From Treponema sp. (GTDB lineage Bacteria; Spirochaetota; Spirochaetia; Treponematales; Treponemataceae): a DNA stretch of 13,380 nt. The stretch covers positions 1-13,380 of the forward strand of contig JAFZWX010000007.1 of the NCBI GenBank assembly GCA_017617145.1, read 5' to 3'. Below the pieces are notes generated by a model that was given only the letters and a program-made list of their open reading frames with translations, was not told the DNA's origin and searched no databases. This document shows, piece by piece, positions 1 through 13,380 of this stretch. How positions within the stretch are numbered: the stretch's first letter is position 1; each line of letters begins with the position of its first letter. Both the position numbers and the translations under genes were made by a program.

Positions 1-228
1 CCGAGCATGACAGTTATTATGTGTGGACCACCGATTTTGATTCACCTTTCGCTCGACGCACTTAAAAAGCTTGGCTTTAAGGACGAGCAGGTTTTCACAA
101 CCATGGAAATGCGCATGAAGTGTGGAATCGGAAAGTGCGGACGCTGCAACATTGGCGACAAGTTTGTCTGCAAAGACGGACCTGTATTTAGCTTTGACCA
201 GTTAGGTGAACTTCCACCTGAGTACTAA
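1..228 (+). CDS. FAD/NAD(P)-binding electron-transfer subunit with [2Fe-2S] site (C-terminal part)
   Basis: The reading frame is open from the first base, so the gene starts upstream; only 75 residues are visible and the ATG at 7 is internal. The piece has the MCGPP motif that ends the NAD(P)-binding lobe of ferredoxin-NADP-reductase-like proteins. It then has a cysteine set C-x4-C-x2-C-x7-C (visible residues 41, 46, 49, 57) followed by KDGPVFS. This is the usual C-terminus of the AsrB / sulfhydrogenase-gamma / dihydroorotate-dehydrogenase-electron-transfer family, which moves electrons between NAD(P)H, FAD and a [2Fe-2S] cluster. The stop is 14 bases before the next ATG, so the three genes 1-2584 look like one operon. 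I infer that it feeds NAD(P)H electrons to the flavoprotein encoded downstream. The exact family cannot be fixed from the fragment. Confidence 0.85.
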   Translation, partial: PSMTVIMCGPPILIHLSLDALKKLGFKDEQVFTTMEMRMKCGIGKCGRCNIGDKFVCKDGPVFSFDQLGELPPEY

Positions 229-242
229 TAAGGAGAAATAAA

Positions 243-932
243 ATGGCTGAAAAAGAAATGGCTACTATTTATATTTTTGGTAAGAAATACGACGTTCCAG
301 CCGAACTTACCATCATGAACGCAATGGAATATGCCGGCTACCAGCTCAAACGAGGCTGCGGCTGTCGTAACGGCTTTTGCGGTGCCTGTGCAACAATTTA
401 CCGCATTAAGGGACAGAACCAGCTGCAGACTTGTCTTGCCTGCTCTAAGAAGGTTGAAAACGATATGTACATCGCAACTCTTCCTTTCTTCCCTCTTGTA
501 AAACAGATTTACGATATCAACAAAATCAAACCAGAGCAGCAGCTTATGATGCAGCTCTACCCTGAGATTTACTCTTGTGTAGGCTGTAACGCCTGTACAC
601 GTGCCTGCCCTCAGAGCCTTCAGACAATGCAGTACATTGCCTACGCTCAGCGCGGTGACTTTGCAAAGTGTGCAGACCTTTCATTTGACTGTGTAATGTG
701 TGGCTGCTGTTCAAGCCGCTGTCCTGCAGGAATAAGTCATCCACAGGTTGCAGAACTTGCACGCCGTATCAACGGTAAATACATTCAGCCTGAAGCACAG
801 CATCTTCTTGACCGTGTTGCCGAAATTGATTCCGGTGCATGCGAAGAAGCAATCCAGAAGTTTGTAGCAATGTCTACAGGCGACAAAGAACAGATTAAGA
901 ACTTGTACAACACAAGAGATATTGAAAAGTAA
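243..932 (+). CDS. Iron-sulfur subunit of a fumarate reductase/succinate dehydrogenase-like complex
   Basis: This 229-residue protein has a fumarate-reductase-B-like layout. An N-terminal [2Fe-2S] ferredoxin fold carries C41-x4-C46-x2-C49 and C64, with extra cysteines at 39 and 67. Two C-x2-C-x2-C-x3-C-P motifs follow at C112/115/118/122 and C150/153/156/160. Both are full [4Fe-4S] motifs of the GlpC/HdrC style, whereas classical SdhB has one [3Fe-4S]. No membrane segment is evident. The start is supported by AGGAG at 231-235, seven bases before the ATG. Role by family: it wires electrons from the upstream flavin/[2Fe-2S] subunit to the FAD protein that starts 14 bases after its stop. The length is close to usual SdhB/FrdB (about 230-250). 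The substrate of the complex is inferred from the flavoprotein. Confidence 0.9.
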   Translation: MAEKEMATIYIFGKKYDVPAELTIMNAMEYAGYQLKRGCGCRNGFCGACATIYRIKGQNQLQTCLACSKKVENDMYIATLPFFPLVKQIYDINKIKPEQQLMMQLYPEIYSCVGCNACTRACPQSLQTMQYIAYAQRGDFAKCADLSFDCVMCGCCSSRCPAGISHPQVAELARRINGKYIQPEAQHLLDRVAEIDSGACEEAIQKFVAMSTGDKEQIKNLYNTRDIEK

Positions 933-946
933 GGCGGAGGAAAGAT

Positions 947-2584
947 ATGTACGGAAATTACCTTGACGATGCTGCGAAAATCGTAGCTGAAAAACGCGAT
1001 GCAAACATTAAATTTGAACATGCTCGTCTTACTGCAGAAGAAAAAGACGATTTACTTTTGAAGTTCCATCCGGACCGCATTAAGGAACAGTTTACAGAAC
1101 TTAAGATTGGTCCAAACAAAGGACAGAAGGCTCCGCTTGAACTTGCAGAAATGCTTCAGGCAAAGCCACGCCTTGAACCGGAAAAAATTGATCTTAACCA
1201 CATTGACTACGAAGCTGACGTACTTGTAATTGGTGGTGGTGGTGCCGGTACTAGTGCCGCAATTATGGCAAGCGAAGCCGGCGCAAAAGTTTTGCTCGTA
1301 ACTAAGCTCCGTGTAGGTGATGCTAACACAATGATGGCAGAAGGTGGTATTCAGGCTGCAGATAAGCCAAACGACTCACCAGCCCAGCACTATCTTGATG
1401 CATTCGGTGGCGGTCACTTTGACGGAAAGCCGGAACTTGTATACACTCTCGTAAACAAAGCTCCAAGCGTAATCAAATGGCTCAACGACCTTGGTGTAGA
1501 GTTTGACAAAATGCCTGACGGAACAATGGTAACAACTCACGGTGGTGGTACAAGCCGCAAGCGTATGCATGCATGTAAGGACTACTCTGGTGCCGAAATT
1601 ATGCGTACACTCCGCGACGAAACCTTTAACCGTGCAGACAGAATTACAGTTGTAGACTTTACAGCCGCAATTGAAATTATTAAGAACGACAAGGGCGAAG
1701 CAGCCGGTGCAGTTCTTATGAACATTGAAACTGGTGAAATCCGCATTGCAAAAGCAAAGGTTGTTGTAATTGCAACAGGTGGAGCCGGACGTATGCACTA
1801 TCAGGGCTTCCCTACTTCTAATCACTACGGTGCTACAGCCGACGGTCTTGTAATGGCATACCGCGCAGGTGCAAAGCTTCTTTACCAGGATTCATTGCAG
1901 TATCACCCGACAGGAGCTGCTTACCCGACACAGATTCTTGGAAAGCTTGTAACAGAAAAGGTTCGCTCACTTGGAGCAAAGCTTATAAACAAAGACGGTG
2001 AAGTTTACATCCACCCGCTTGAAACTCGTGACGTAAACGCTTCCGGAATTATCCGTGAAGTTCGTGAAGGTCGCGGTGTAAAGAACGACGTACAGGAAGC
2101 AGTATGGCTCGACACTCCGATGATCGAAAAAATCCACGGAGAAGGAACAATCCTTAAGTCAATTCCTGCTATGTACAATATGTTCATTAAGTATGGAATC
2201 GATATCCGTAAGGAACCAATTCTTGTTTATCCAACTCTTCACTATCAGAACGGTGGTGTAGAAATTAACAAGACCTGCCATACAAACGTTGCAAACCTGC
2301 TCGTAGCCGGAGAAGCCTCTGGTGGTGTTCACGGAACAAACCGCCTTATGGGTAACTCTTTGCTCGACGTTGTAGTATTCGGCCGTGAAGCTGGAATTGA
2401 AGCCGGCAAGATGTTCAAGGACATTAAGCTTTCCGACAAGCTCAGCCTGCAGCACGTAAAGGATTTTGAAAAGGAACGCGAAGCCGCCAAGATTACAGGC
2501 GATGCAGTTTCTCCAAAGATTCTGCCACGCTACACACACGGCAACAAGGAATTTGAAAAAGATATTCCTGGGGCTACACTTTAA
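947..2584 (+). CDS. FAD-dependent fumarate reductase/succinate dehydrogenase-type flavoprotein
   Basis: This 545-residue flavoprotein of the FrdA/SdhA/NadB family has GGAGG at 936-940, six bases before its ATG. Residues 1-88 are an extra hydrophilic N-terminal region. The dinucleotide-binding GGGGAG is at 96-101. The capping and active-site motifs are present: HPTG (H320), TE at 336-337, a RDV motif (R361) matching the FrdA catalytic arginine, HYQNGG (H432) and GGVHGTNRLMGNS (R466). The residue matching the FrdA histidine that binds FAD covalently is Asn127 (ANTMMAEGG), so FAD is probably bound non-covalently, as in soluble fumarate reductases. The Fe-S and FAD/NAD(P) partners upstream, and the lack of an SdhC/FrdC anchor downstream, suggest a soluble NAD(P)H:fumarate reductase (inference). 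L-aspartate oxidase is less likely because NadB works without such Fe-S partners. Confidence 0.88.
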   Translation: MYGNYLDDAAKIVAEKRDANIKFEHARLTAEEKDDLLLKFHPDRIKEQFTELKIGPNKGQKAPLELAEMLQAKPRLEPEKIDLNHIDYEADVLVIGGGGAGTSAAIMASEAGAKVLLVTKLRVGDANTMMAEGGIQAADKPNDSPAQHYLDAFGGGHFDGKPELVYTLVNKAPSVIKWLNDLGVEFDKMPDGTMVTTHGGGTSRKRMHACKDYSGAEIMRTLRDETFNRADRITVVDFTAAIEIIKNDKGEAAGAVLMNIETGEIRIAKAKVVVIATGGAGRMHYQGFPTSNHYGATADGLVMAYRAGAKLLYQDSLQYHPTGAAYPTQILGKLVTEKVRSLGAKLINKDGEVYIHPLETRDVNASGIIREVREGRGVKNDVQEAVWLDTPMIEKIHGEGTILKSIPAMYNMFIKYGIDIRKEPILVYPTLHYQNGGVEINKTCHTNVANLLVAGEASGGVHGTNRLMGNSLLDVVVFGREAGIEAGKMFKDIKLSDKLSLQHVKDFEKEREAAKITGDAVSPKILPRYTHGNKEFEKDIPGATL

Positions 2585-2588
2585 TTAC

Positions 2589-2660
2589 TCGTCATTGCGA
2601 GGAGCGTAGCGACGTAGCAATCCATAATTGTAGATTGCCGCGCTTCGCTCGCAATGACGA
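2589..2660. repeat. Palindromic intergenic repeat pair (GTCATT...AATC units), possible bidirectional terminator
   Basis: Perfect 13-base arms (2589-2601 and 2648-2660) enclose the convergent junction between the flavoprotein and the diguanylate cyclase. Inside, GCAATC (2617-2622) pairs with GATTGC (2633-2638). Read in two parts, it is an inverted pair of smaller units, 2591-2623 on + and 2632-2658 on -. Each starts GTCATTGCGAG and ends GCAATC(C/T). Such units are widely dispersed in bacterial genomes. No clear U-run follows, so a terminator role is only possible. Confidence 0.8.
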
Positions 2661-2672
2661 TTAAATAAACTT

Positions 2673-3878
2673 TTATATCATTCCCTTAAGCAACTTCTTT
2701 CTTTCGTACATTTTTTTATCTGCATGTTTAAAGACTTCTTCAAATGAATCATATTGCGATGAAGAATAAACATCCATTCCACTTGAAATAACTACATCAT
2801 TTGTTTTCAGATTATCTTCCATCTTTTTTTCAAAATTATTTAAAAGTAATTCACGATTTTTATAATCTTCGCCACGTAAGAATGCTACAAATTCATCTCC
2901 ACCAATTCTGTAAATTGGACTATGCTTATATATATTACAAATTATCTGTGACGCATCTTTTATATATAAATCTCCAGCTTCATGACCTTTAGAATCATTA
3001 ATTTGTTTTAAACTGTTTAAATCAAAAACTACAATTCCAAATTCATTTATAAGTCCACAATTAACGGCCTCTTGAATTTCTTTCTGTGCTTCAAGAAAGG
3101 CTCGTTTATTTTTTACTCCTGTTAAAGAATCTGTATATGCCATTTTTGTGGTAGTGTTAATTTCTAATTTCTGGAAATTTTCTTTAGAAATATGTTCTTC
3201 AAGCTGTTTACGGTAATCTTCCTTTTCATCTTCTAAAACGAATGTATGAATAAGACAGGTTCCGATTAAATAACCGATTGAATAAAATGGAAGAAGTGGA
3301 AAAATAGTTTGTAAAATTACAAACAATGTCATAGCAATTCCAAAACCACCTATAGTTCTATGACGCTGCCGCTCCTTTCCTTGAGTGTGAATAGCAAATA
3401 AATATACATGAACTGAAGTAATAATAAACATTAATACTTGGAATACATATGCAATATATCTCATAAAACTGGCATGATAGACACAATCAGAATCAAAATA
3501 AAATTTTATAGGAGTAAAGAAATTAATTATTAATGCTAAACAATCAAATATAAGATATATCCAGCCAAAATATGAAAGGATTTTTAAAAAGATATTTTTT
3601 TCATCCAGAAAATGAATTACATAACGTGTCCACAGAAAAACTGAAACAGACATTGCAACATAATAAATAACTGTATCTGTATAAATTGCTGTAATCAGTT
3701 TTGCTTCATAAAGTAATCCCCATAAGGAATCTGTTATATAATATAATGATACTCCATATAAAAACCATCTATACCATTGATTGGAATATTTAGTGTTTTT
3801 GTCTTTTTTCAACAGAATATCATAATTTATTATTAAATGTACGACAAAAGATAAAATTGCAATACCTGAATAAGCCAT
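2673..3878 (-). CDS. Membrane-bound diguanylate cyclase (multi-TM sensor + GGDEF)
   Basis: In this 401-residue protein, residues 1-215 hold about seven hydrophobic stretches (near 4-20, 38-57, 63-83, 98-120, 138-163, 177-196, 200-214), a membrane sensor region. A charged linker (216-245) precedes a GGDEF domain with DSLTG (250-254), FDLNSLKQIND (metal-binding D286) and intact GGDEF at 326-330. It should make c-di-GMP from two GTP at the inner membrane. The usual product-inhibition I-site (RxxD) before GGDEF is here YKHS (317-320), so feedback inhibition is probably missing. The start is supported by GGAG seven bases upstream (CTCC at 3886-3889 on +) and by a good promoter. The gene is very AT-rich. 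It is convergent with the flavoprotein gene and divergent from the acyl-CoA synthetase. The input signal is unknown. Confidence 0.9.
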   Translation of the reverse strand: MAYSGIAILSFVVHLIINYDILLKKDKNTKYSNQWYRWFLYGVSLYYITDSLWGLLYEAKLITAIYTDTVIYYVAMSVSVFLWTRYVIHFLDEKNIFLKILSYFGWIYLIFDCLALIINFFTPIKFYFDSDCVYHASFMRYIAYVFQVLMFIITSVHVYLFAIHTQGKERQRHRTIGGFGIAMTLFVILQTIFPLLPFYSIGYLIGTCLIHTFVLEDEKEDYRKQLEEHISKENFQKLEINTTTKMAYTDSLTGVKNKRAFLEAQKEIQEAVNCGLINEFGIVVFDLNSLKQINDSKGHEAGDLYIKDASQIICNIYKHSPIYRIGGDEFVAFLRGEDYKNRELLLNNFEKKMEDNLKTNDVVISSGMDVYSSSQYDSFEEVFKHADKKMYERKKLLKGMI

Positions 3879-3904
3879 TAATTAACTCCGATTAATGATT
3901 AAAT

Positions 3905-3932
3905 ATTATACCATATTTCTTACAAAAAACAA
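3905..3932 (-). promoter_or_regulatory. Promoter of the diguanylate cyclase gene
   Basis: On the minus strand, TTGTTT (3927-3932) lies 16 bases before a perfect TATAAT (3905-3910). The -10 box is extended by a TG one base ahead (TGGTATAAT). The start of transcription would fall about 20 bases before the ATG at 3878, leaving room for the GGAG ribosome site. Confidence 0.65.
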
Positions 3933-3949
3933 TGACTTATATAATGCGA

Positions 3950-4017
3950 AATTCTTTAATAAATAGCATGCCAATTTCTTTAATTATATTTAATTTCTTT
4001 ACAAATATTAAAGAAAT
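3950..4017. promoter_or_regulatory. Cluster of ATTTCTTTAAT-like repeats between divergent promoters (candidate operator)
   Basis: Three direct copies of an ATTTCTTTA-like word occur at 3950-3960, 3974-3984 and 3993-4001, and an inverted copy ATTAAAGAAAT at 4007-4017. The last two form a 9-base perfect inverted repeat with a 7-base spacer (3993-4001 / 4009-4017). They lie between the two divergent promoters, upstream of both -35 boxes, where an activator or shared repressor could bind. The DNA is very AT-rich, so chance is a real alternative. Confidence 0.35.
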
Positions 4018-4020
4018 CTA

Positions 4021-4049
4021 TTGAAATTTTACTGAATTTTCTCTAAAAT
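4021..4049 (+). promoter_or_regulatory. Promoter of the acyl-CoA synthetase gene, predicting a leaderless mRNA
   Basis: TTGAAA (4021-4026), a 17-base spacer and TAAAAT (4044-4049) make a near-consensus housekeeping promoter. Transcription would begin around 4056-4057, at the A of the ATG (4057). No Shine-Dalgarno sequence lies upstream of the ATG. Confidence 0.6.
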
Positions 4050-4056
4050 TATATTT

Positions 4057-5703
4057 ATGATTGAATTAACATTATCCCAGTTACTTAGAGAAAAAACAAA
4101 AAATAATCCATCTCACGAATTCATGGTTTATGCAGACCGTGATCTTCGATTTACATACGCTCAATTTGATAAACGCGTAGACGATATGGCTTGTGGTCTT
4201 TACGCAATTGGTGTTCGAAAAGGTGATAATGTTGGTATTTGGGCAACAAATGTTCCTGACTGGTTAACTTATATGTTTGCCTGTGCTCGTCTTGGTGCAG
4301 TAGCAGTTACAGTTAATACTTCCTATAAATCTCATGAACTTGAATATCTGGTAAAACAGGCAGATTTAACTACTTTGTGTCTGTGCGACGGAATAAAGGA
4401 TTCAAATTATGTCGCAATGATTAAAGAACTTGTACCTGAGCTTGATGAATACGAACGCGGCTGCTTAAAATCAAAACGCTTCCCTTGCCTTCGTAATGTT
4501 GTTTTTATGGGACCTGAAAAATTCCGAGGACTTTACTCAACTCCGGAGCTTCTTCTTCTTGGACAACATGTAGATATTGAAATTATTCATAAAATTGAAA
4601 GTGAAGTTTCGCAGCATGATGTTGTAAATATGCAGTATACTTCTGGAACAACAGGTTTCCCAAAAGGTGTTATGCTTTCAAGCCACAATATTATTAATGA
4701 TGGTTTTATTATTGGTGAACGAATGCGATATACCGAAAATGATCGTCTGTGCCTTCTTGTTCCTCTTTTCCATTGTTTTGGTATTGTACTTGGAGTTATG
4801 GCAGTTCTTACACATGGAGGAACACATGTTCTTCTTGAAAGCTTTGATCCTCTTGTAGCACTCGCTTCCATTCAAAAGGAAAAATGTACTTCATTATATG
4901 GAGTACCAACAATGTTTATTTCCGAATTAAATCATCCTATGTTCAATATGTTCGATATGTCTTCGCTTAGAACCGGTATTATGGCAGGTTCCGGAGTTCC
5001 TGTCGAACTTATGAAAACTGTAATTGAAAAAATGCATATGCCCGAAATTACTTCTGTCTATGGTCTTACAGAATCTAGTCCTGGAATGACACAAAGCCAC
5101 TGGGACGATTCAGTAGAAGTTAAGGCTACAACAGTTGGCGATGCTTTTGAAGGTATAGATGTAAAAGTACTTGACCCTGAAACTGGAAAAGAATGTCCTA
5201 TCGGAGTTCAAGGTGAAATGTGCTGTCGTGGCTGGAACGTTATGAAGGGTTACTATAAGATGCCCGAAGCAACTGCCGAAACAATAGATAAAAACGGTTA
5301 TCTTCATTCTGGTGATCTTGGTGTAAAAGACGAAAACGGAAACTTTAAGATTACAGGCCGTATTAAAGATATGATTATCCGTGGTGGTGAAAATATTTAT
5401 CCTCGTGAAATTGAAGAATTTCTTATTCAGATTCCAGAAATCAAAGATATTCAGGTTGCAGGCGTTGAATCTAAACGTTACGGCGAAATTACAGGTGCCT
5501 TTATCATTCTGCACGAAGGAAAAACTCTTACCGAACAGGATGTTATTGAATTCTGCCGCGATAAACTTTCAAAATACAAATGGCCGCAGCTTGTAATGTT
5601 TATGGATGAATTCCCAATGACCGGCTCCGGCAAAATCCAGAAGTTTAAATTAACAGAAATCGGTACTAAATACCGCCGTGAAGTTTTGAAAGTCGACGAT
5701 TAA
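4057..5703 (+). CDS. Acyl-CoA synthetase (AMP-binding, ACSF2/YngI-like)
   Basis: This 548-residue member of the adenylate-forming family activates a carboxylic acid with ATP and joins it to CoA. Seen: P-loop YTSGTTGFPKGV (194-205), YGLTE (335-339), SGD (418-420), the hinge GRIKD (434-438), RGGENIYP (442-449) and the C-terminal catalytic lysine K526 in GSGKIQK. Length and overall wording resemble Bacillus YngI and mitochondrial ACSF2, which act on medium- or short-chain fatty acids; the substrate here cannot be read from sequence. The protein starts directly with the family's N-terminal pattern, and the ATG has a promoter right upstream but no ribosome site. It stands alone, divergent from the diguanylate cyclase and followed by a structured intergenic element. 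A role in branched-chain fatty acid activation, linked to the VorB-type oxidoreductase further along, is a hypothesis. Confidence 0.9.
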   Translation: MIELTLSQLLREKTKNNPSHEFMVYADRDLRFTYAQFDKRVDDMACGLYAIGVRKGDNVGIWATNVPDWLTYMFACARLGAVAVTVNTSYKSHELEYLVKQADLTTLCLCDGIKDSNYVAMIKELVPELDEYERGCLKSKRFPCLRNVVFMGPEKFRGLYSTPELLLLGQHVDIEIIHKIESEVSQHDVVNMQYTSGTTGFPKGVMLSSHNIINDGFIIGERMRYTENDRLCLLVPLFHCFGIVLGVMAVLTHGGTHVLLESFDPLVALASIQKEKCTSLYGVPTMFISELNHPMFNMFDMSSLRTGIMAGSGVPVELMKTVIEKMHMPEITSVYGLTESSPGMTQSHWDDSVEVKATTVGDAFEGIDVKVLDPETGKECPIGVQGEMCCRGWNVMKGYYKMPEATAETIDKNGYLHSGDLGVKDENGNFKITGRIKDMIIRGGENIYPREIEEFLIQIPEIKDIQVAGVESKRYGEITGAFIILHEGKTLTEQDVIEFCRDKLSKYKWPQLVMFMDEFPMTGSGKIQKFKLTEIGTKYRREVLKVDD

Positions 5704-5716
5704 TGAATATTAAATA

Positions 5717-5819
5717 AATCATCTGTAAGGTTGTGACCGTAGGAGAAAATGCCTGTGAACAACTTCCTTCTGTTGGCTGAAGACTTTTTTCACGAGAGGG
5801 AACAACCTTATACATGATT
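5717..5819. other. Intergenic structured element (long imperfect stem with internal hairpins)
   Basis: Arms 5717-5734 and 5802-5819 can pair at about 16 of 18 positions, including nine perfect pairs TAAGGTTGT/ACAACCTTA. Inside, GTGAA (5755-5759) pairs with TTCAC (5789-5793) around a small CAAC/GTTG hairpin. An alternative small hairpin (5738-5743 with 5752-5757) overlaps it. The element lies after the acyl-CoA synthetase stop and ends 48 bases before the next promoter. A terminator or small structured RNA is possible. It does not match any riboswitch class I know. Confidence 0.5.
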
Positions 5820-5866
5820 CAATTATTATTTACCTTCAAAAAAAACTATCTTTTTGCGAATTTCCA

Positions 5867-5875
5867 TGATATAAT
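5867..5875 (+). promoter_or_regulatory. Extended -10 promoter of the FIST-hydrogenase/EAL unit, predicting a near-leaderless mRNA
   Basis: TGATATAAT is a perfect extended -10 box (TG at 5867-5868, TATAAT at 5870-5875). No good -35 is visible, which is normal for extended -10 promoters. Transcription should start around 5882-5883, and the ATG is at 5884, with no Shine-Dalgarno sequence before it. Confidence 0.6.
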
Positions 5876-5883
5876 TTAATATT

Positions 5884-6999
5884 ATGGAACGCTGCTTACT
5901 TGCTTTAAGTGGAACAGGCAAAAAAGAAGATGATTTTCAAACCTGTTACGAAAAACTTTCATCTCAAAACTGCTCACCAAAAATCATAATCTTTTTTTCA
6001 GATTATGATGATTTATGGTATTATGCAAAGCAGCTTAAAGAAAAATTCCCTGAATCAACTTCAATAGGATGCTCAACATGTATTAATTTTTCTACAGAAG
6101 GCTACAGTGAAAAAGGCCTTTCTGCAATGGCAATATTCAGCGGAGTTGAATGTTCTTCAAATCTTATTTACGAAGTTTCCCGTCATCCAAAGAATTATAG
6201 TAATCATATTCGCGAAGCCTTAAAATCACTCACCTCCACTGACAACACCTGCTGTCTTGAATTTACAACCTCAGGCTTTCGTTGCGAAGAGCTTGTGCTC
6301 GATACTTTTGAAGAAATCCTTCGTGGTACAAACATTAAAGTTGGCGGTTCTACAGCCGGAAGCAATATAGACGAAAAAACCTCTGCCGTAGCTCTGAATG
6401 GTGATATTTATGTAGAAAGCTGTGCTTTTATATTTATTCATAACCTTCAGGGAAAAGTTCAGTTATATCGCGAAAACTTATTCCGCCCTACTACACATCA
6501 GCTTCGCATTACAGATGTAGATTGTGAACAACAGCGAGTTTATGAATTTGACTACAAGCCTGCTGCCGAAGTTTTATGTCATCTTCTGGGAGTTAAAAAA
6601 GAAAATCTTTTACAAACACTTAAAACAAATCCAATTGGTCGAATAGAAGGCGAAAACATTCTTATTTCAGAAGCAAAAGAAATTATGCCGGATGATTCTA
6701 TTACATACTATACACGCCTTTATAATATGACCCGTGTAATGCTTTTGGAAATTGACCATTTTGACAGTGTGTGGGATGAAACTCAAAAACATATGAAAAA
6801 GCTTATGCCAAATCCTTCTTTTTCTATTGCAGTTCATTGCCTTTCACGTACAAAGCTTTTACAAAAAGAAAATCGGTTTACAGATTTTACAGAAAGACTT
6901 ACTACAACTCTCGGAAAATACATTGGTGTTTCGGGCTACGGTGAACAGATTATGTACAACAATCTGAATCAATCACTGGTTCTGATCAGCTTTGAATAA
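5884..6999 (+). CDS. FIST domain sensory protein
   Basis: This 371-residue soluble protein matches the FIST_N plus FIST_C layout. Near the N-terminus are a beta strand KIIIFFSD (33-40) and the hallmark IGCST (61-65). The VGGSTAGSN loop is at 153-161. TNPIGRIEG (248-256) belongs to the C-terminal half, and the chain ends with the GYGEQ motif (351-355) and a final strand. FIST domains are thought to sense small ligands (amino acids have been proposed) and often sit beside or within signalling proteins. Here it is 20 bases upstream of the hydrogenase-EAL fusion, so the pair probably forms one operon and the FIST protein may modulate that enzyme. No output domain, signal peptide or membrane segment is visible. 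There is no ribosome site; the start is set by the frame and by the promoter just upstream. Confidence 0.82.
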   Translation: MERCLLALSGTGKKEDDFQTCYEKLSSQNCSPKIIIFFSDYDDLWYYAKQLKEKFPESTSIGCSTCINFSTEGYSEKGLSAMAIFSGVECSSNLIYEVSRHPKNYSNHIREALKSLTSTDNTCCLEFTTSGFRCEELVLDTFEEILRGTNIKVGGSTAGSNIDEKTSAVALNGDIYVESCAFIFIHNLQGKVQLYRENLFRPTTHQLRITDVDCEQQRVYEFDYKPAAEVLCHLLGVKKENLLQTLKTNPIGRIEGENILISEAKEIMPDDSITYYTRLYNMTRVMLLEIDHFDSVWDETQKHMKKLMPNPSFSIAVHCLSRTKLLQKENRFTDFTERLTTTLGKYIGVSGYGEQIMYNNLNQSLVLISFE

Positions 7000-7019
7000 T
7001 CATTTACGGAGAAACCTGC

Positions 7020-10000
7020 ATGTTCAGATTCAACAACGGAATTTTAATAACAAATGATAATTGTATTGGCTGTAATTATTGTATTTCGCAATGCTCAATA
7101 ATGGGAGCCAATATTTCGACAACAAGAAACGGAAAAAAAATCATAGCCATAGATTCCGACAAATGTAATCACTGCGGAAAATGTATTGCACTTTGTATTC
7201 ATAATGCCCGTGAATATCTTGATGATTTAGATGATTTCTTTGAAGCGCTGAAAAACGGTGAAAAAATTTCTTTAGTAATTGATCCGAGTTTTTATTTTAC
7301 CTTTGGTGATCTTGCTCCTAAAATCACAGGATATTTAAAATCACTTGGCGTTGATAAGGTTTATGACAGTTCCTTTGGTTCTGAAATAAATATTTGGGCA
7401 ACTGTTAAATATCTTAAAGATAATTATGAAAAGCCTGCAAGCGAAAAAGCTTTTGTTGTAAATAACTGTCCTGCTTTTATAAATGTTGTCGAAATGAAAT
7501 ATCCGCAACTAATGAACAAAATTATACCCGTTCAGTCTGGACCACTTTGTACTGCAATTTATGCTCATAAATATCTTAAGGACACAAACAAAATTGCATA
7601 CCTTGGACCTTGTATTGCAAAAAAAGATGAAATTATTTCAAAAAACACTCATGAAAATATAAATTATAATTTAACTTTCCATCATATCTGGACAAAAATT
7701 AAAGATAATAATTTTTCAAACGTTGAACCATATTATTCAGATATCAAACCTGTTGGATTTGGCCGCTTTGTAATAAGAACCGGTTTTTATAAAACAATGA
7801 TTTCGCGCTTTTTCTCTGTAAAAGATATAAGCATGGTTCACAGTGGTGCCGGTGACCCTACTTTTAAACGCATTTTAATGTATACAAATCCTGAATATAA
7901 TAACCTTCAGCCACTTCTTGCCGAAGTATATGCCTGTAACAAAGGCTGCTTTGAAGGTCCTGGAACGGAAACAAGCTGTCACAAAGATGGCGAAAACTTT
8001 TCGCGCTTTTTAAAAGAGTTCAAAGAATATTTTGATAGTTTTGGTAATGCTACAACCGATTATATTGAATCAACTAAAAATCTCTATGCTTGTTTTAAAG
8101 ATTTTGATAGTGATGATTTTAAGCGTGAATTTACAGAACGATACATACAACCATACCATATTTCTGATTTTGTTTATGACGATATATTTAATTCAATGCT
8201 CAAAACTACTGAAGAAAAACGTCATATTGACTGCGGTATGTGTGGATATAAAACCTGTAAAAACATGGCAACTGCAATCGCCTATTCTTATACAAAAAAA
8301 GAAAACTGCATTCACTATATGAATGATGAAATGAAGCACAGGCTTTACACCGACGCAGTAGCTAATTGTCCTAACCGCGATGCCTTTATAGAAAAAGTTA
8401 CACAGGTTATTGAACAGAATCCGGGCAAAAAATATAGACTTTACTGTGGTGATATTAACAAATATAAAGTTATTAATGAGCTTTATGGAACAGACATTGG
8501 AGATGCTGTTTTACGAACAATCAGTACAAAACTAAAAGAAGTTCTTGGTCAAAATGCCTGGTATGCACGAATTACAAGCGGACAGTTTGCTTTCTTTATT
8601 GAAGAAACAATTGAAAATATTCAAAAAATAATGAACTTAAAATCCTTTGATTGCACATCTCTTGGTATTAACTATCCTATAACAATGCGTTTTGGTTTTT
8701 ACAGCATGCAGGAAAATACAGAAGAAGAATACAATGCGATGAATATGATTAACTCTGCAATTCTTGCAATGGATTTGCGTATAACACAACAGGAAAATAC
8801 TTATAGTGGCTTTACACAAACTCTTAAGCAAAAACAACATGACGAAGCAAAGCTTTCTACACTTATGAAATCTGCGCTTGATAATAATGAGTTTGTTCTC
8901 TGGTTCCAGCCACAGTATTCTACAGCCTCAGGAAAACTTGTTGGTGCCGAAGCACTTTGCCGCTGGATAAATAAAGAAGGTCAAATCATTTCTCCTTCTA
9001 TTTTTATTCCGGTTACAGAAAAAAACGGTTTTATACGATATCTTGATAAGGAAATCTGGCGTAAAGCTTTTAGCATGATAAGACGCTGGATTGATGAAGG
9101 CTTTGATCCGGTTCCAATTTCTATAAATATTTCTCGAGTCAGTCTTGAATCTGAAGGAATATATTACACAATAAAATATCTTAAAGATGAATACAAAATT
9201 CCTCCAGAACTTGTTCACTTTGAAATTACAGAAAGTGCATATATTGGCGATGAAGGAACCTTTTTGCAGCGAATTAACCAGATAAGAAGTCTTGGCTTTA
9301 AAATTGCCATGGATGATTTTGGAAGCGGATATTCTTCACTCAATTCACTAAAGGATATTCCAATAGATATCATCAAGCTTGATATGGGTTTCTTAAATAA
9401 TAGTAATCTTTCAAATAATAACACAGATCCGGTTCAGACAAATCGCGGTGGTACAATTATCAGTTCTGTAATTCACATGGCACAAAAACTTAAGTATATA
9501 ACTGTTGCCGAAGGTGTTGAAAAGCAGGAACAACTGCAATTCCTTAAGAGCATTGGCTGTGATATTATTCAGGGATTTTTGTTTGCAAAACCAATGCCTG
9601 AAAATGCATTTATTGAAATTTTAAAAGAAAAAGATAAGCAATTTGAATTAAAGACAGAAAAGATGCAGCAGGGACAATTTGAAATTGCACGCTTTATAAA
9701 TCCAACAACACAGGAATCTTTTGTATTCGATCATTTTGTTGGCGCAGCCCTGATTGTAGAATATAATCCCGAAAAAGCACATACAACAATTCTGCGTACA
9801 AATAATCAGGCAAAAGAACTTTTTGGTGTTGCAGACAGGCCATTTGATGTAATTAATAATCTTTTCTCAAGGTTTACGCAATCAGTTAATGGTAAGCCAC
9901 TCAAAAAAGCATTTGAGGAAGCCGGTAAAACAACTGATGAAGTCAAATGCGAAGTTCGAATTCATAATTTAACAAAGCATGATGTAAAACACATTAGAGC

Positions 10001-10106
10001 TCACTTGTGGCAAATAAACACAAACATGCGTACTTATGTTGTTTATATTTTGTTTGAAGATATTTCTGAATTCAGATTATTGGAAGAAAGTTTGGATAGG
10101 AAATAA
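7020..10106 (+). CDS. Sensory [FeFe]-hydrogenase-like / degenerate GGDEF / EAL / PAS fusion (predicted c-di-GMP phosphodiesterase)
   Basis: This 1028-residue multidomain protein has GGAG at 7008-7011, eight bases before the ATG. Domains in order: two [4Fe-4S] ferredoxin motifs (C15/18/21/25, C49/52/55/59); an [FeFe]-hydrogenase large-subunit domain (about 82-330) keeping all four cysteines that hold the H-cluster (C150, C198, C306, C310); and a further [4Fe-4S] motif (C405/408/413/430). Next come a GGDEF fold (441-600) whose signature is TSGQF at 519-523, so no cyclase activity, and an EAL domain (603-868) with a full catalytic set: E644, N703, E735, D765, D766, K786, E831, Q851. A PAS-like tail follows (about 900-1020). 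The proton-transfer cysteine of true hydrogenases is Asn149, fitting the sensory (group C, cyclase-linked) hydrogenases rather than an H2-producing enzyme. Predicted job: hydrolyse c-di-GMP in response to H2 or redox state (inference). Confidence 0.88.
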   Translation: MFRFNNGILITNDNCIGCNYCISQCSIMGANISTTRNGKKIIAIDSDKCNHCGKCIALCIHNAREYLDDLDDFFEALKNGEKISLVIDPSFYFTFGDLAPKITGYLKSLGVDKVYDSSFGSEINIWATVKYLKDNYEKPASEKAFVVNNCPAFINVVEMKYPQLMNKIIPVQSGPLCTAIYAHKYLKDTNKIAYLGPCIAKKDEIISKNTHENINYNLTFHHIWTKIKDNNFSNVEPYYSDIKPVGFGRFVIRTGFYKTMISRFFSVKDISMVHSGAGDPTFKRILMYTNPEYNNLQPLLAEVYACNKGCFEGPGTETSCHKDGENFSRFLKEFKEYFDSFGNATTDYIESTKNLYACFKDFDSDDFKREFTERYIQPYHISDFVYDDIFNSMLKTTEEKRHIDCGMCGYKTCKNMATAIAYSYTKKENCIHYMNDEMKHRLYTDAVANCPNRDAFIEKVTQVIEQNPGKKYRLYCGDINKYKVINELYGTDIGDAVLRTISTKLKEVLGQNAWYARITSGQFAFFIEETIENIQKIMNLKSFDCTSLGINYPITMRFGFYSMQENTEEEYNAMNMINSAILAMDLRITQQENTYSGFTQTLKQKQHDEAKLSTLMKSALDNNEFVLWFQPQYSTASGKLVGAEALCRWINKEGQIISPSIFIPVTEKNGFIRYLDKEIWRKAFSMIRRWIDEGFDPVPISINISRVSLESEGIYYTIKYLKDEYKIPPELVHFEITESAYIGDEGTFLQRINQIRSLGFKIAMDDFGSGYSSLNSLKDIPIDIIKLDMGFLNNSNLSNNNTDPVQTNRGGTIISSVIHMAQKLKYITVAEGVEKQEQLQFLKSIGCDIIQGFLFAKPMPENAFIEILKEKDKQFELKTEKMQQGQFEIARFINPTTQESFVFDHFVGAALIVEYNPEKAHTTILRTNNQAKELFGVADRPFDVINNLFSRFTQSVNGKPLKKAFEEAGKTTDEVKCEVRIHNLTKHDVKHIRAHLWQINTNMRTYVVYILFEDISEFRLLEESLDRK

Positions 10107-10121
10107 ATGGAATTAATGTGC

Positions 10122-10187
10122 CAAAAATATTCTGTCGTCCCGCAAACAGAACGAAAAGGAAGTTTGCGTGCCGCCAGAATATTTTTG
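10122..10187. terminator. Stem-loop terminator between convergent genes
   Basis: A perfect 12-base stem, CAAAAATATTCT (10122-10133) with AGAATATTTTTG (10176-10187), encloses a 7x7 internal loop and an inner perfect 7-base stem CGCAAAC/GTTTGCG (10141-10147 / 10162-10168) with a 14-base loop. It fills the 98-base gap between the convergent stops at 10106 and 10205. T-runs close the stem on both strands, so it can work in both directions. Confidence 0.7.
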
Positions 10188-10204
10188 TCATATATAGTTT
10201 CATT

Positions 10205-10780
10205 TTATGCCGGAGTATAAACTACTGCAAGAATCTTTGCGTTATTCTCACCATAACTATGAACATGATGAGCAACAATTGATTCATAATAAATTGAATC
10301 ACCTTTGTCTAACAGATACTTGTCTTTTCCGTATATGATTTCAACCTGACCTTCAAGAACATAAATGAACTCTTCGCCTTCGTGAGTTGAAGTTTTTATT
10401 TCTTCTTCAGAACTTGGGAAAATATCAATTACAAAAGGATCCATGTGGCGACCTGCTTTGTCTTTAGCAAGTGTATAAAAGTCAAGGTCAGAATTGATTG
10501 CGTTTCCTCTGTCACTGAAGCGTGTTACTTCTTTTTTTTCTGCAGCCCGTGAAACTACAGGACCTAGGTTTTCGTCGTCGTCCATAAAAGTACCAAGACG
10601 AACACCAAGTACACGTGCAATTTTAATAAGCGGAGTAAGGTTTGGAACAAGGCTTCCGTCTTCTATACTTGAAATTTGTTCTACACTTAGATTTGTACGT
10701 TCACTAACATCTTCTATACTGAGCTTGCGGTTTTCGCGAACCAGCTTTACCTTTGCACCAATTTTATTTTTTTCACTCAT
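10205..10780 (-). CDS. XRE-family HTH-cupin transcriptional regulator
   Basis: In this 191-residue protein, residues 7-62 are a HTH_3 DNA-binding domain with the usual LSVEQISSIEDGSLVPNL pattern. Residues about 112-188 are a cupin barrel with HEGEEF (133-138) and HHVH (171-174), likely metal or ligand contacts. Such HTH-cupin proteins sense a small ligand and control neighbouring metabolic genes; here the neighbour upstream is the 2-oxoacid:ferredoxin oxidoreductase operon on the same strand. The start is supported by AGGAG five bases before the ATG (CTCCT at 10786-10790 on +). A 101-base gap holding paired palindromes separates it from the gamma subunit gene, and no strong promoter is evident in the gap, so read-through transcription is plausible. 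In other anaerobes I associate this family with CoA ligase and 2-oxoacid oxidoreductase genes, which fits but does not prove its target. Confidence 0.88.
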   Translation of the reverse strand: MSEKNKIGAKVKLVRENRKLSIEDVSERTNLSVEQISSIEDGSLVPNLTPLIKIARVLGVRLGTFMDDDENLGPVVSRAAEKKEVTRFSDRGNAINSDLDFYTLAKDKAGRHMDPFVIDIFPSSEEEIKTSTHEGEEFIYVLEGQVEIIYGKDKYLLDKGDSIYYESIVAHHVHSYGENNAKILAVVYTPA

Positions 10781-10795
10781 GATTTCTCCTTATAT

Positions 10796-10881
10796 GAGAT
10801 TCCCGCGTCAAGCGCGGGAATGACAGATTGTCATTGTCGTTATTGACATTATGTCATTGTCGGGCTTGACCCGACAATCTC
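10796..10881. repeat. Inverted pair of 30-base palindromic units with compensatory stems
   Basis: Two 30-base units, 10796-10825 (read on -) and 10852-10881 (read on +), share the frame TGTCATT-stem-CTTGA-stem-AATCTC. Each folds into a perfect 9-base hairpin with a 5-base loop. The variable six stem bases are CCCGCG/CGCGGG in one and GTCGGG/CCCGAC in the other: three changes, all compensated. The 26-base spacer repeats TGTCATTGTCG (10829-10839) from the second unit (10852-10862). They sit between the gamma subunit and the regulator gene. Confidence 0.85.
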
Positions 10882-11433
10882 TTACTTGATTTTGTATTCT
10901 TTATTGTAAGCTGCCTCTATCGTAGCAATATTAATCGGATTAAACTTCTTATTGCGCTCGCTTATTGCTTCGTCCAGGGCAAACTCAAAGGGTTTTGGAC
11001 CGCTTATCATGCCGGGAATTACCTTTGCAAGACAGCCAAGAACTACCATGTTTGCACCGCGAGGGTTGTTTGTTTCTTCTGCCATTTCGTTACAAGGAAG
11101 GGCCAGAACTCTGATATCCTTGCGCTCTGGTTCAATATCAATAAGGCTTGAATTGTAAATTAAAAGTCCACCTTTTTTAAGAAGTGGTTCAAACTTTGTC
11201 ATACTTGGCTTATTAAGTGCAACTACAACATCAGGATTTTCGATTACAGGAGAAGCAACTTCTTCATCACTTACAATTACAGAGCAGTTTGCAGTTCCAC
11301 CGCGCATCTCAGCCCCGTAGGATGGAATATGTGAAACAAACTTATCTTCGCTCATTCCTGCAAGTGTAAGAATCTTTCCGGCAAGAATAACTCCCTGACC
11401 ACCAAAGCCTGCAAAAATTATTTCTGTTGTCAT
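10882..11433 (-). CDS. 2-oxoacid:ferredoxin oxidoreductase gamma subunit
   Basis: This 183-residue protein is the gamma (CoA-binding) domain subunit of the KOR/VOR/POR family, which converts 2-oxoacids plus CoA to acyl-CoA, CO2 and reduced ferredoxin. It has the opening motif GFGGQG (9-14), PSYGAEMRGG (37-46) and NNPRGANMVVLG (141-152), all standard for this subunit, and the length is typical (about 180). It is the last of the oxidoreductase genes, 16 bases after the beta stop. A G-rich ribosome site (CCCCC at 11441-11445 on +) lies seven bases before the ATG. Substrate preference is taken from the alpha subunit. Confidence 0.92.
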   Translation of the reverse strand: MTTEIIFAGFGGQGVILAGKILTLAGMSEDKFVSHIPSYGAEMRGGTANCSVIVSDEEVASPVIENPDVVVALNKPSMTKFEPLLKKGGLLIYNSSLIDIEPERKDIRVLALPCNEMAEETNNPRGANMVVLGCLAKVIPGMISGPKPFEFALDEAISERNKKFNPINIATIEAAYNKEYKIK

Positions 11434-11449
11434 ACTAATTCCCCCACAC

Positions 11450-12238
11450 CTATTTGTTTACGACACCGGCAACCGGACTTGCTGCTTCCGGAACATTGCC
11501 TGCCGGTACATCACGGAAAACTCCAAGCGGATAATATGGCTCCATGGCATCCTTTACCCAGTCTGCAGCAATTGTTGGTGCAACACCCCAGTTTGTCGGA
11601 CACATAGAAAGAACTTCAACAAAGCTGTAGCCCTTACCTTCCTTCTGGTATGTGAGCGCCTTTTTAATTGCAGCCTTTGTCTGATTAATATGCTTTACAT
11701 CGTAAACTGCACAGCGTTCAATATATTTTGGTTCAACAAGTGTATTCAAAAGCTCACAGGCACGAATAGGATATCCGACATCATTTGCATCGCGGCCATA
11801 AGGTGAAGTTTTTGTTACCTGGCCAACAAGAGAAGTTGGTGCCATCTGACCACCAGTCATTCCGTAAATTGCGTTGTTTATAAAGATTACTGTGATATTT
11901 TCGCCGCGGTTTGCAGCATGAACAGTTTCGCCCATACCAATTGCAAGAAGGTCTCCGTCTCCCTGGTAGCTTATAACAAGCTTGTCGGGATGAACGCGCT
12001 TCATACCTGTTGCAACAGCTGGAGCACGACCATGAGCGGCTTCGCAGGAATCTACGTTTATATAATTATAAGCGTAAACAGCACAACCAACAGGCGCTAC
12101 AAGCAAAACATCACTTTGAATATTCATTTCATCAATTACCTGAGCAATGAGCTTATGAACAATTCCGTGTCCACAGCCGCCACAGTAATGAGTCTTATTA
12201 TCTTTCATTGATTTAGGAAATTCGTATTTTTTAGACAT
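11450..12238 (-). CDS. 2-oxoacid:ferredoxin oxidoreductase beta subunit (thiamine diphosphate)
   Basis: This 262-residue beta subunit carries the catalytic cofactor thiamine diphosphate. The N-terminal YCGGCGHG holds C19, C22 and H24. GDGD (93-96) with NNAIYGMTGGQ (121-131) is the metal/diphosphate-binding motif, and PVGC (49-52) is a further conserved cysteine. Its ATG overlaps the end of the alpha gene by 8 bases, a sign of translational coupling. The C-terminal segment PLGVFRD with a short Ala/Val-rich tail is usual for VOR/KOR beta chains. It should act as a soluble complex with alpha, gamma and delta, reducing ferredoxin, or run in reverse as a CO2-fixing synthase. Confidence 0.93.
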   Translation of the reverse strand: MSKKYEFPKSMKDNKTHYCGGCGHGIVHKLIAQVIDEMNIQSDVLLVAPVGCAVYAYNYINVDSCEAAHGRAPAVATGMKRVHPDKLVISYQGDGDLLAIGMGETVHAANRGENITVIFINNAIYGMTGGQMAPTSLVGQVTKTSPYGRDANDVGYPIRACELLNTLVEPKYIERCAVYDVKHINQTKAAIKKALTYQKEGKGYSFVEVLSMCPTNWGVAPTIAADWVKDAMEPYYPLGVFRDVPAGNVPEAASPVAGVVNK

Positions 12239-13289
12239 AGCTCTTTACCTTCTCAATAATTGCATCTACTTTAGGAATGATTCCACCAGGCTCGCCGTAG
12301 AAATCAACATCACTTGGTTTGTGACCGCAGTAAAGCTTAACATCCTGAACCATCTGTCCCATAGACATTTCTACAGTAAGAACTTTTTTTGCTTTTGAAC
12401 AGGCAGCTTCAATTTCTTTCTGCGGGAACGGCCACAAAGTAATTGGTCGGAACAAGCCTGCTTTTATTCCCTGTTCACGAAGCATTTTTACTGCTTTTTT
12501 ACAAACGCGTGCTGCAGTACCATAACCTGTAAGAACAACATCTGCATCGTCGCACATAAAGGTTTCGCTCATTGTTTCGTTTGCCTGAATGTTTTCGTAA
12601 TTTTCAAAAAGTTCTTTTGTATGCTTATTCAAATCATAGTCATCGCCGTTCAAGCGCAAAGAAAGTGCAATGTTATTTTCGCGGTCTGCAGTGCGACCTG
12701 AAAGAGCCCAAGGCTTTGCAGGGAACTCTTTTACATATTCAGGAAGAATACAAGGTTCACTCATTTGTCCAAGGTAACCGTCACCCAAAATCATACAAAC
12801 AACGCGGTATTTATCTGCAATTTCAAATGCTTTTACTGTGTAATCTGCCATTTCCTGAACAGTTCCAGGAGCAATAACTACAACATGATAGTCTCCATTA
12901 CCACCACCTCTAGTTGCCTGGAAGTAGTCCCCTTGAGCACCACTAATATTTCCAAGACCCGGGCCACCACGCATCATATTTACGATAACTGCTGGAAGCT
13001 GAGCACCTGAAAGATATGAAATTCCTTCCTGTTTCAAAGAAATTCCAGGTGAAGATGAAGAAGTCATAGCACGGGCTCCAGCTGCACTTGCACCCATAAC
13101 CATATTTATTGCTGCTAGTTCACTTTCTGCCTGTAAAAAGCAGCCGTTTTCCTGTGGAAGACGTTTTGCCATGTAAGCCGGAATTTCGTTTTGTGGAGTA
13201 ATTGGATACGCAAAATAAAAGCGGCAGCCTGCACGTATAGCGGCTTCTCCAATTGCTTCGTTTCCTTTCATTAATACTTTATTTGCCAT
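12231..13289 (-). CDS. vorB: 2-oxoacid:ferredoxin oxidoreductase alpha subunit, VorB-like
   Basis: This 352-residue alpha subunit has the N-terminal LMKGNEAIGEAAIRAGCRF pattern, YPITPQNE (28-35) and the loop TSSSSPGISL (75-84). Length and wording match proteins annotated as 3-methyl-2-oxobutanoate (2-oxoisovalerate) dehydrogenase subunit VorB, so branched-chain 2-oxoacids are the likely substrates. 2-oxoglutarate (KorA) remains an alternative because the two families are close. The ATG is two bases from the stop of the delta gene (13291-13293) and its end overlaps the beta gene, so delta-alpha-beta-gamma form a tight operon. Codon choice is richer in G+C than in the signalling genes, suggesting strong expression. 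Confidence 0.9.
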   Translation of the reverse strand: MANKVLMKGNEAIGEAAIRAGCRFYFAYPITPQNEIPAYMAKRLPQENGCFLQAESELAAINMVMGASAAGARAMTSSSSPGISLKQEGISYLSGAQLPAVIVNMMRGGPGLGNISGAQGDYFQATRGGGNGDYHVVVIAPGTVQEMADYTVKAFEIADKYRVVCMILGDGYLGQMSEPCILPEYVKEFPAKPWALSGRTADRENNIALSLRLNGDDYDLNKHTKELFENYENIQANETMSETFMCDDADVVLTGYGTAARVCKKAVKMLREQGIKAGLFRPITLWPFPQKEIEAACSKAKKVLTVEMSMGQMVQDVKLYCGHKPSDVDFYGEPGGIIPKVDAIIEKVKSYV

Positions 13290-13290
13290 A

Positions 13291-13380
13291 CTACTCTGCC
13301 TCTATTTCAATTACGCAATCAGGACACATTGTTGCACAAAAAGCGCAGGCAATACAGTTTGCCTCATCTATACAAACAGG
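13291..13380 (-). CDS. Ferredoxin-like delta subunit of the 2-oxoacid oxidoreductase (C-terminal part)
   Basis: An open frame enters from the right edge and stops with TAG at 13291-13293, one base before the alpha ATG. The 29 visible residues include NCIACAFCATMCPDC, a [4Fe-4S] C-x2-C-x2-C-x3-C-P motif, then VIEIEAE. An earlier cysteine three residues from the edge belongs to the preceding cluster. This is the usual end of the small two-cluster delta subunit (VorC/KorD type) that passes electrons to ferredoxin. The start lies outside the window. Confidence 0.88.
   Translation of the reverse strand, partial: PVCIDEANCIACAFCATMCPDCVIEIEAE

Follow-up and report, generated by a model that had tools for sequence, protein, structure and literature searches.

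Domain searches and alignments of a single open reading frame (ORF) in a 13,380-nucleotide stretch of Treponema sp. DNA (contig JAFZWX010000007.1, positions 1 to 13,380; the whole of this stretch is referred to as the window) reveal an [FeFe]-hydrogenase domain (H-domain) joined to a phosphodiesterase domain for cyclic di-GMP (c-di-GMP). The ORF lies at 7020–10106 on the forward strand, as do all of its parts given below, and encodes 1028 amino acids (aa). We put at about even chances the explanation that we favor, in which the soluble product acts as an iron-sulfur sensor, responding to the redox state of the cell or to a small gas by switching c-di-GMP hydrolysis, with the diiron subsite of the hydrogenase H-cluster perhaps optional. 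The order of parts is two ferredoxin-type motifs (Fer4-Fer4), the H-domain, an iron-sulfur (FeS) motif, a GGDEF domain, an EAL domain and a tail with a PAS fold. A preliminary description of this DNA had proposed this architecture, with a dead GGDEF, and it is borne out by Pfam, by alignments and, for the tail, by AlphaFold2 and Foldseek; a Pfam search of the kind it suggested matched the PF02906-type Fe_hyd_lg_C, PF04060, GGDEF and EAL models. The fusion is neither a product of chance nor an assembly join, since near-full-length relatives with 73–92% identity (P0001–P0018) are located on separate contigs. The ATG start codon has GGAG 5′ to it, and Met1 is kept in at least 90% of 95 aligned proteins.

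There are several features of sensory hydrogenases in the N-terminal and central parts of the protein. First, two ferredoxin-type [4Fe-4S] motifs (C15–C25 and C49–C59; 7059–7208) are matched by Fer4_7 (aa 14–63, 4e-7). Second, the H-domain (7272–7979, from Fe_hyd_lg_C at aa 98–314, 1.6e-25, and from alignments) contains all four cysteines that ligate the H-cluster, as previously proposed; by alignment they are C150, C198, C306 and C310. Third, in the numbering of the hydrogenase CpI, C299 corresponds to N149, M353 to G196, M497 to Y304 and K358, which we take to be a functional residue, to K201. Fourth, C405, C408, C413 and C430 (8232–8309; PF04060 at aa 403–431, 1.2e-5) form an exact Cx2Cx4Cx16C motif, which the consulted sections of PMC8163306 describe as characteristic of the sensory groups C and D; the roles of the CpI residues other than K358 are likewise taken from those sections. 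The four cysteines, the replacement of the proton-transfer residue C299, the altered M353 position and the C-terminal motif are hallmarks of sensory [FeFe] proteins, and as such they speak for an alternative in which this is a true H2 sensor, every member of the family carrying a full H-cluster and H2 altering phosphodiesterase activity. We regard this alternative as credible though somewhat doubtful, and it is weighed below with the distribution of the H-cluster maturases.

The GGDEF domain (8346–8735; Pfam aa 443–572, 2.9e-15) is degenerate, with TSGQF at aa 519–523 where a diguanylate cyclase has the signature GG(D/E)EF. The EAL domain (8871–9593; Pfam aa 618–858, 2.7e-64; aligned to PaMorA 4rnh) retains all eight catalytic and metal-binding residues (E644, N703, E735, D765, D766, K786, E831 and Q851). 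Judged by these residues, the surviving output is predicted to be c-di-GMP hydrolysis and not synthesis, in agreement with the preliminary description, and an active cyclase is ruled out by the loss of the signature here and in nearly all relatives. In Foldseek searches with a whole-chain AlphaFold2 model, in which the domains are confident (mean pLDDT 85.9) but their arrangement is not (pTM 0.53), the GGDEF-EAL part matches PaMorA and DosP and the H-domain matches the HydA structures 8a6t and 7p8n. The likeness to PaMorA and DosP, and the conservation of the EAL residues while the GGDEF signature has been lost, support the reading of the protein as a sensor coupled to a phosphodiesterase. LapD and FimX have the same tandem GGDEF-EAL arrangement, as would be expected of a non-catalytic c-di-GMP receptor, but all eight catalytic residues are present and conserved; we consider a receptor of this type highly improbable and reject it as the main explanation on this ground. 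The C-terminal tail (9645–10103) scores 14.2 bits against PAS_9 (E 0.053), below the Pfam cut-off of 27; a separate AlphaFold2 model of aa 876–1028 has a pLDDT of 88.4 and a pTM of 0.80, and its best matches in the PDB are LOV/PAS domains (E 1e-5, Foldseek).

The fusion protein is one member of a family conserved among gut Treponema and Lachnospiraceae. A protein search returned 1033 homologues at E<=1e-10; of the best 120, 119 carry PF02906 together with GGDEF and EAL, and the five entry names among these 120 that give an organism are all Treponema. Scanning GTDB genomes with the H-domain identified 321 relatives, and 80 of them were retained. These come from Treponema, other Spirochaetales, Lachnospiraceae and a few other Clostridia, and many of the titles of their genomes name rumen, horse or other gut samples. 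By output type (assigned by Pfam for examples and by motif otherwise) these 80 loci comprise 52 with GGDEF-EAL, 27 with a methyl-accepting chemotaxis protein (MCP) chemoreceptor and one with a hybrid histidine kinase. No relative was found in the viral contigs searched.

Several patterns are apparent in an alignment of 61 EAL-type proteins (the 52 loci, eight further loci and the window protein). First, the cysteines of the H-domain and the C-terminal cluster are present in all 61, and those of the ferredoxin part in 60–61, the single exception being a gap. Second, the EAL catalytic residues are present in 61/61 (Q851 in 60/61), and a strict GGDEF signature occurs only once, with two additional GGDDF. 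Third, some positions around the H-cluster vary: the C299 equivalent is Cys in 1/61, the M353 equivalent is Ser in 26/61 and Gly (Gly196) in the window protein, and the pair at P231-S232 is PS in 39/61. Finally, a lysine at the K358 position is found in 37 of the 61 and lost from 24, in contrast to the chemoreceptor type, where it is kept in 27/27; it is retained in the window protein (K201) and in loci L001–L007, which form its clade. Among the best 120 of the 1033 homologues the corresponding counts are 118–119/120 for the cysteines of the H-domain and C-terminal cluster (one row is gapped, and one protein has Ser in place of C306), 115/120 for the first ferredoxin motif (five gaps), 120/120 for the EAL residues, 0/120 for strict GGDEF and 61/120 for the K358 equivalent.

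A tree of 61 EAL-type, 31 MCP-type, one histidine-kinase-type, two group A and two group B H-domains, made by a quick method with many long branches and no TmHydS sequence, recovers a single clade (SH-aLRT 97) for 60 of the 61 EAL-type H-domains, whose nearest neighboring branch is that of the H-domain chemoreceptor fusions. The remaining protein, L093, groups with the MCP/kinase type apart from the other 60, and fusion of an H-domain to c-di-GMP domains has therefore probably arisen at least twice. A search with the L093 type gave 5043 matches at E<=1e-30, possibly including other H-domain types; the best 120 (P0121–P0240) all have PF02906, GGDEF and EAL, and names among the matches listed include Lachnospiraceae, Ruminococcus, Clostridia and Treponema.

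Immediately upstream of the fusion gene, ending 20 bp 5′ of it, is a gene, absent from the preliminary description, for a 371-aa NosP-like protein (5884–6999, forward strand; Pfam FIST 2.3e-23, FIST_C 3.3e-11). It has the FIST_N plus FIST_C composition of NosP and scores 101.5 bits with the NosP model NF041558, below the cut-off of 450. A FIST gene is directly upstream at 26 of 50 evaluable EAL-type loci in L001–L080 (L009 and L027 being without upstream sequence) and at 6/8 further loci, a total of 32/58, the intergenic distance ranging from -17 to +117 bp (because the first possible start codons were used, a slight overlap may be an artefact). The 28 MCP/kinase-type loci, 22 of which extend more than 1 kb upstream, yielded no FIST gene. 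Since the NosP-like gene adjoins the fusion gene here and at 32/58 loci, a second signal input through FIST is likely, and the FIST protein is a probable partner or second sensor of the fusion protein. According to the consulted sections of PMC8846402 and PMC12570481, NosP and the FIST-EAL protein CdpA are FIST proteins that act on c-di-GMP enzymes, which, together with the frequency of the neighbor, lends some substance to the idea that FIST is the sensor, directly controlling the EAL enzyme, and the H-domain a structural leftover. A leftover would, however, lose its cysteines, and these are invariant in 61/61 proteins including those of the loci without a FIST neighbor (26/58), so that this idea appears unlikely. 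An alignment of 33 FIST proteins shows Cys124 and Cys319 of the window's protein to be invariant, whereas none of its His residues is.

Synthesis of the diiron subsite requires HydE, HydF and HydG, and the cubane requires the general Fe-S machinery alone (consulted sections of PMC6212873). We looked for the three maturases in two sets of carrier genomes. In the first (35 genomes, for 35/52 EAL-type loci of the GTDB scan, hand-picked to span the list) HydF and HydG are above the cut-off in the same 12 genomes and HydE in 11 of these, and all three are undetected in the other 23 assemblies searched. The second is from the T. bryantii genus, for which 89 genomes were obtained with a requested minimum completeness of 90, and contains 17 carriers, defined by a match of at least 291 bits and an open frame of at least 798 aa (an EAL domain was observed in 15, the other two being G038 and G066, and G113 is of the L093 type). 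HydG was found in six of the 17, HydE in seven and HydF in six, and all three are undetected in 10. The sets share seven genomes, and jointly the maturases are all undetected in 28/45. Among these 28 are the Treponema bryantii isolates XBD1002 and NK4A124 and G037, an assembly of ~3.5 Mb with one contig of 3.43 Mb. In the window's clade, 2/7 genomes (L005 and L006) have all three.

In G094 hydEFG sits between proS and p306, and in its sister G077 this site is contiguous and empty, its neighbors 122 bp apart on one contig; the two fusion proteins have the same ligand cysteines, near-identical motifs and Ala at the K358 position. The proS-p306 site also has no hydEFG in G003, G004, G009 and G037, and hydEFG is missing at the equivalent of the YchJ-hydF site of G006 in G002, G003, G004, G009 and G037. 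Gaps in metagenome-assembled genomes appear unlikely as the sole cause of the missing maturases, given the contiguous sites and the 3.43 Mb contig, although possible for single genomes.

These absences bear on whether the family senses H2. The true H2 sensor would require the missing maturases to reflect incomplete genomes or a maturation route not yet recognized; it is favored by the maturases of L005 and L006, but it sits uneasily with the isolates, with G037, with the contiguous sites and with the 24/61 proteins lacking the K358-equivalent lysine. H2 sensing by the family is accordingly not secure, because the maturases are undetected in 28/45 carriers and the lysine is kept in just 37/61. 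An optional diiron subsite, as in the explanation favored here, is suggested by the strict conservation of the [4Fe-4S] ligands together with these same two distributions. A stronger version, in which the hydrogenase fold has become a diiron-free signaling device, a [4Fe-4S] H-domain and its FIST partner controlling c-di-GMP breakdown in spirochetes and Lachnospiraceae unable to make an H-cluster, is in our view tentative, a possibility on the lower side of even.

Several observations weigh against an optional diiron subsite. First, Ala stands at the K358 position in maturase-bearing G094, and more generally loss of this lysine is not linked to absence of HydG, being kept in 10/16 proteins with HydG and 12/27 without (Fisher p 0.35). 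Nor did H-domain divergence relative to EAL differ clearly with the presence of maturases in the host (25 pairs, by eye). Second, canonical-motif group A hydrogenases are encoded in four genomes in which no maturase was detected (G001, by a partial gene, G002, G003 and G009), which suggests gaps and so favors the true H2 sensor, and of the genus genomes with a PF02906 match above 300 bits (group A-scoring) 11/14 are without detected HydG and 3/14 have it. Third, HydG-less G058 has HydE and HydF, and G054 and G066 have HydE; because group A hydrogenases and such partial sets occur without HydG, either genes are missing from some assemblies or maturation can follow an unknown route, and some of the absences may be of one or the other kind. 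Fourth, the location of hydEFG varies, and as it is elsewhere in G046 an empty site is not proof of loss. Finally, K201 is kept in the window's own clade and two of the seven closest relatives have all three maturases. We therefore make no claim that an H-cluster is absent from the window's protein, which perhaps has a full one.

Two further observations concern the maturases and other H-domain genes. Canonical [FeFe]-hydrogenase genes are present in Treponema genomes in which HydG went undetected, for example G003 and G009 (group A) and G015 and G016 (group B), at loci L081, L083, L085 and L088, and by score also in G077 and G037. At L099 and L100 (genomes G048 and G061) H-domain chemoreceptors are encoded beside HydG, which would fit H2 chemotaxis.

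Domain content, residue and operon conservation and the distribution of maturases in the assemblies searched are direct observations; we infer the cofactor state, the signal, the direction of the switch and the phenotype as follows. Electrons or a ligand would reach the H-domain, supplied by H2 or by way of the N-terminal ferredoxin clusters, and the resulting change would pass through the C-terminal [4Fe-4S] cluster to the dead GGDEF domain, which would act as a relay and switch EAL phosphodiesterase activity. The co-encoded FIST protein would add a second signal, perhaps nitric oxide or heme as for NosP and CdpA. With an optional diiron subsite, some members, perhaps including the window's, could sense H2 with a full H-cluster and others would probably have the cubane alone. 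Lower c-di-GMP usually favors motility, and motility would be the presumed outcome of phosphodiesterase activity, as the preliminary description also supposed.

The family adds c-di-GMP breakdown, in gut bacteria, to the three outputs of sensory [FeFe] proteins in HydDB. If members work without a diiron subsite, counts of H-domains taken as hydrogenases (in rumen methane work, for example) would inflate estimates of H2 metabolism and of sensing, and the family would be a natural experiment on hydrogenase folds turning into sensors; were the diiron-free device real, hydrogenase-like genes would not report H2 metabolism in these hosts. The related pair G094 and G077, with hydEFG detected in the first and not in the second, makes the diiron-free reading testable.

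The remainder of the window contains other features of note. A 401-aa protein (2673–3878, reverse strand) has an intact GGDEF signature (GGDEF 1.3e-22) and is a candidate opposing diguanylate cyclase, encoded ~3 kb from the phosphodiesterase gene. At 10105–10204, between the convergent fusion gene and a gene for a helix-turn-helix (HTH)-cupin regulator (10205–10780), is a long, nearly perfect hairpin (-38.2 kcal/mol, z -8.3) that is possibly a two-way terminator; no second copy was found in the window or in L001–L100. Behind the regulator are genes for a VorB-type 2-oxoacid:ferredoxin oxidoreductase (10882–13289, reverse strand), which are also downstream of the fusion gene in 6/7 of L001–L007, the seventh contig ending there. 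Tandem genes at 243–2584 encode an Fe-S (ferredoxin-like) protein and a fumarate-reductase-like flavoprotein. An Rfam scan of the window gave no match at gathering scores, and a promoter scan performed no better than shuffles (20 found versus 20.1).

How does the fusion protein compare with known systems? The preliminary description had placed it beside sensory hydrogenases linked to diguanylate cyclases as a recognized class of group C, and this does not hold: in the consulted sections of PMC5037454, HydDB [FeFe] C1 is histidine-kinase-linked, C2 chemotactic and C3 phosphatase-linked, and the diguanylate-cyclase-linked class is [NiFe] 2c. Searches of the open-licence literature turned up no account of an [FeFe] H-domain joined to EAL, and no paper on a hydrogenase with a FIST domain or on a sensory hydrogenase with a diguanylate cyclase; the PMC8846402 census of c-di-GMP stimuli does not use the word hydrogenase in its main text. 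Nor did they yield a useful paper on the fermentation products of T. bryantii, on which none of our claims depends.

With group C (M2f; TmHydS; HydDB C1–C3) the protein shares the two N-terminal [4Fe-4S] clusters, the H-domain with its four cysteines, the replacement of C299 (N149) and the C-terminal Cx2Cx4Cx16C, and like TmHydS it has Gly (G196) for M353. It differs in having a GGDEF-EAL pair as output where group C has a kinase, chemoreceptor or phosphatase, no such partner being found among the ten window proteins scanned, and in what follows the C-terminal cluster, which is directly GGDEF (from aa 443), the PAS fold lying at 876–1028; its H-cluster is predicted from sequence. It is therefore outside C1–C3 by output and PAS position. 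Group D (M2e; TamHydS) has the same cluster layout and likewise no PAS directly after the C-terminal cluster, but TamHydS has Ser at M353, where group D has Ser/Thr and the window protein Gly196 (26/61 relatives have Ser), and the fusion protein carries an output domain. The C2-like H-domain chemoreceptor fusions of Lachnospiraceae and Treponema have the same H-FeS module and differ in their MCP signaling domain, the K358 equivalent kept in all 27 and the lack of any FIST gene found in their loci. The L093-type family has the same domain order but, among its best 120 members, K358 in 118/120 and strict GGDEF in 27/120, and is probably an independent fusion.

On the output side, DosP, PaMorA, RocR and other EAL phosphodiesterases share the EAL fold and the eight catalytic residues, and DosP also couples a sensor to GGDEF-EAL, their inputs being heme, PAS or receiver domains in contrast to the Fe-S H-domain here. 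NosP and CdpA likewise link a FIST_N-FIST_C protein to a c-di-GMP enzyme, although FIST here is a separate gene, scoring below the NosP cut-off, beside a phosphodiesterase with its own Fe-S clusters. The putative, diguanylate-cyclase-linked [NiFe] group 2c shares the proposed coupling of H2 sensing to c-di-GMP, with a [NiFe] enzyme and synthesis in place of breakdown. By analogy with these systems, the fusion protein would work like a sensory group C or D protein joined to a DosP-like phosphodiesterase.

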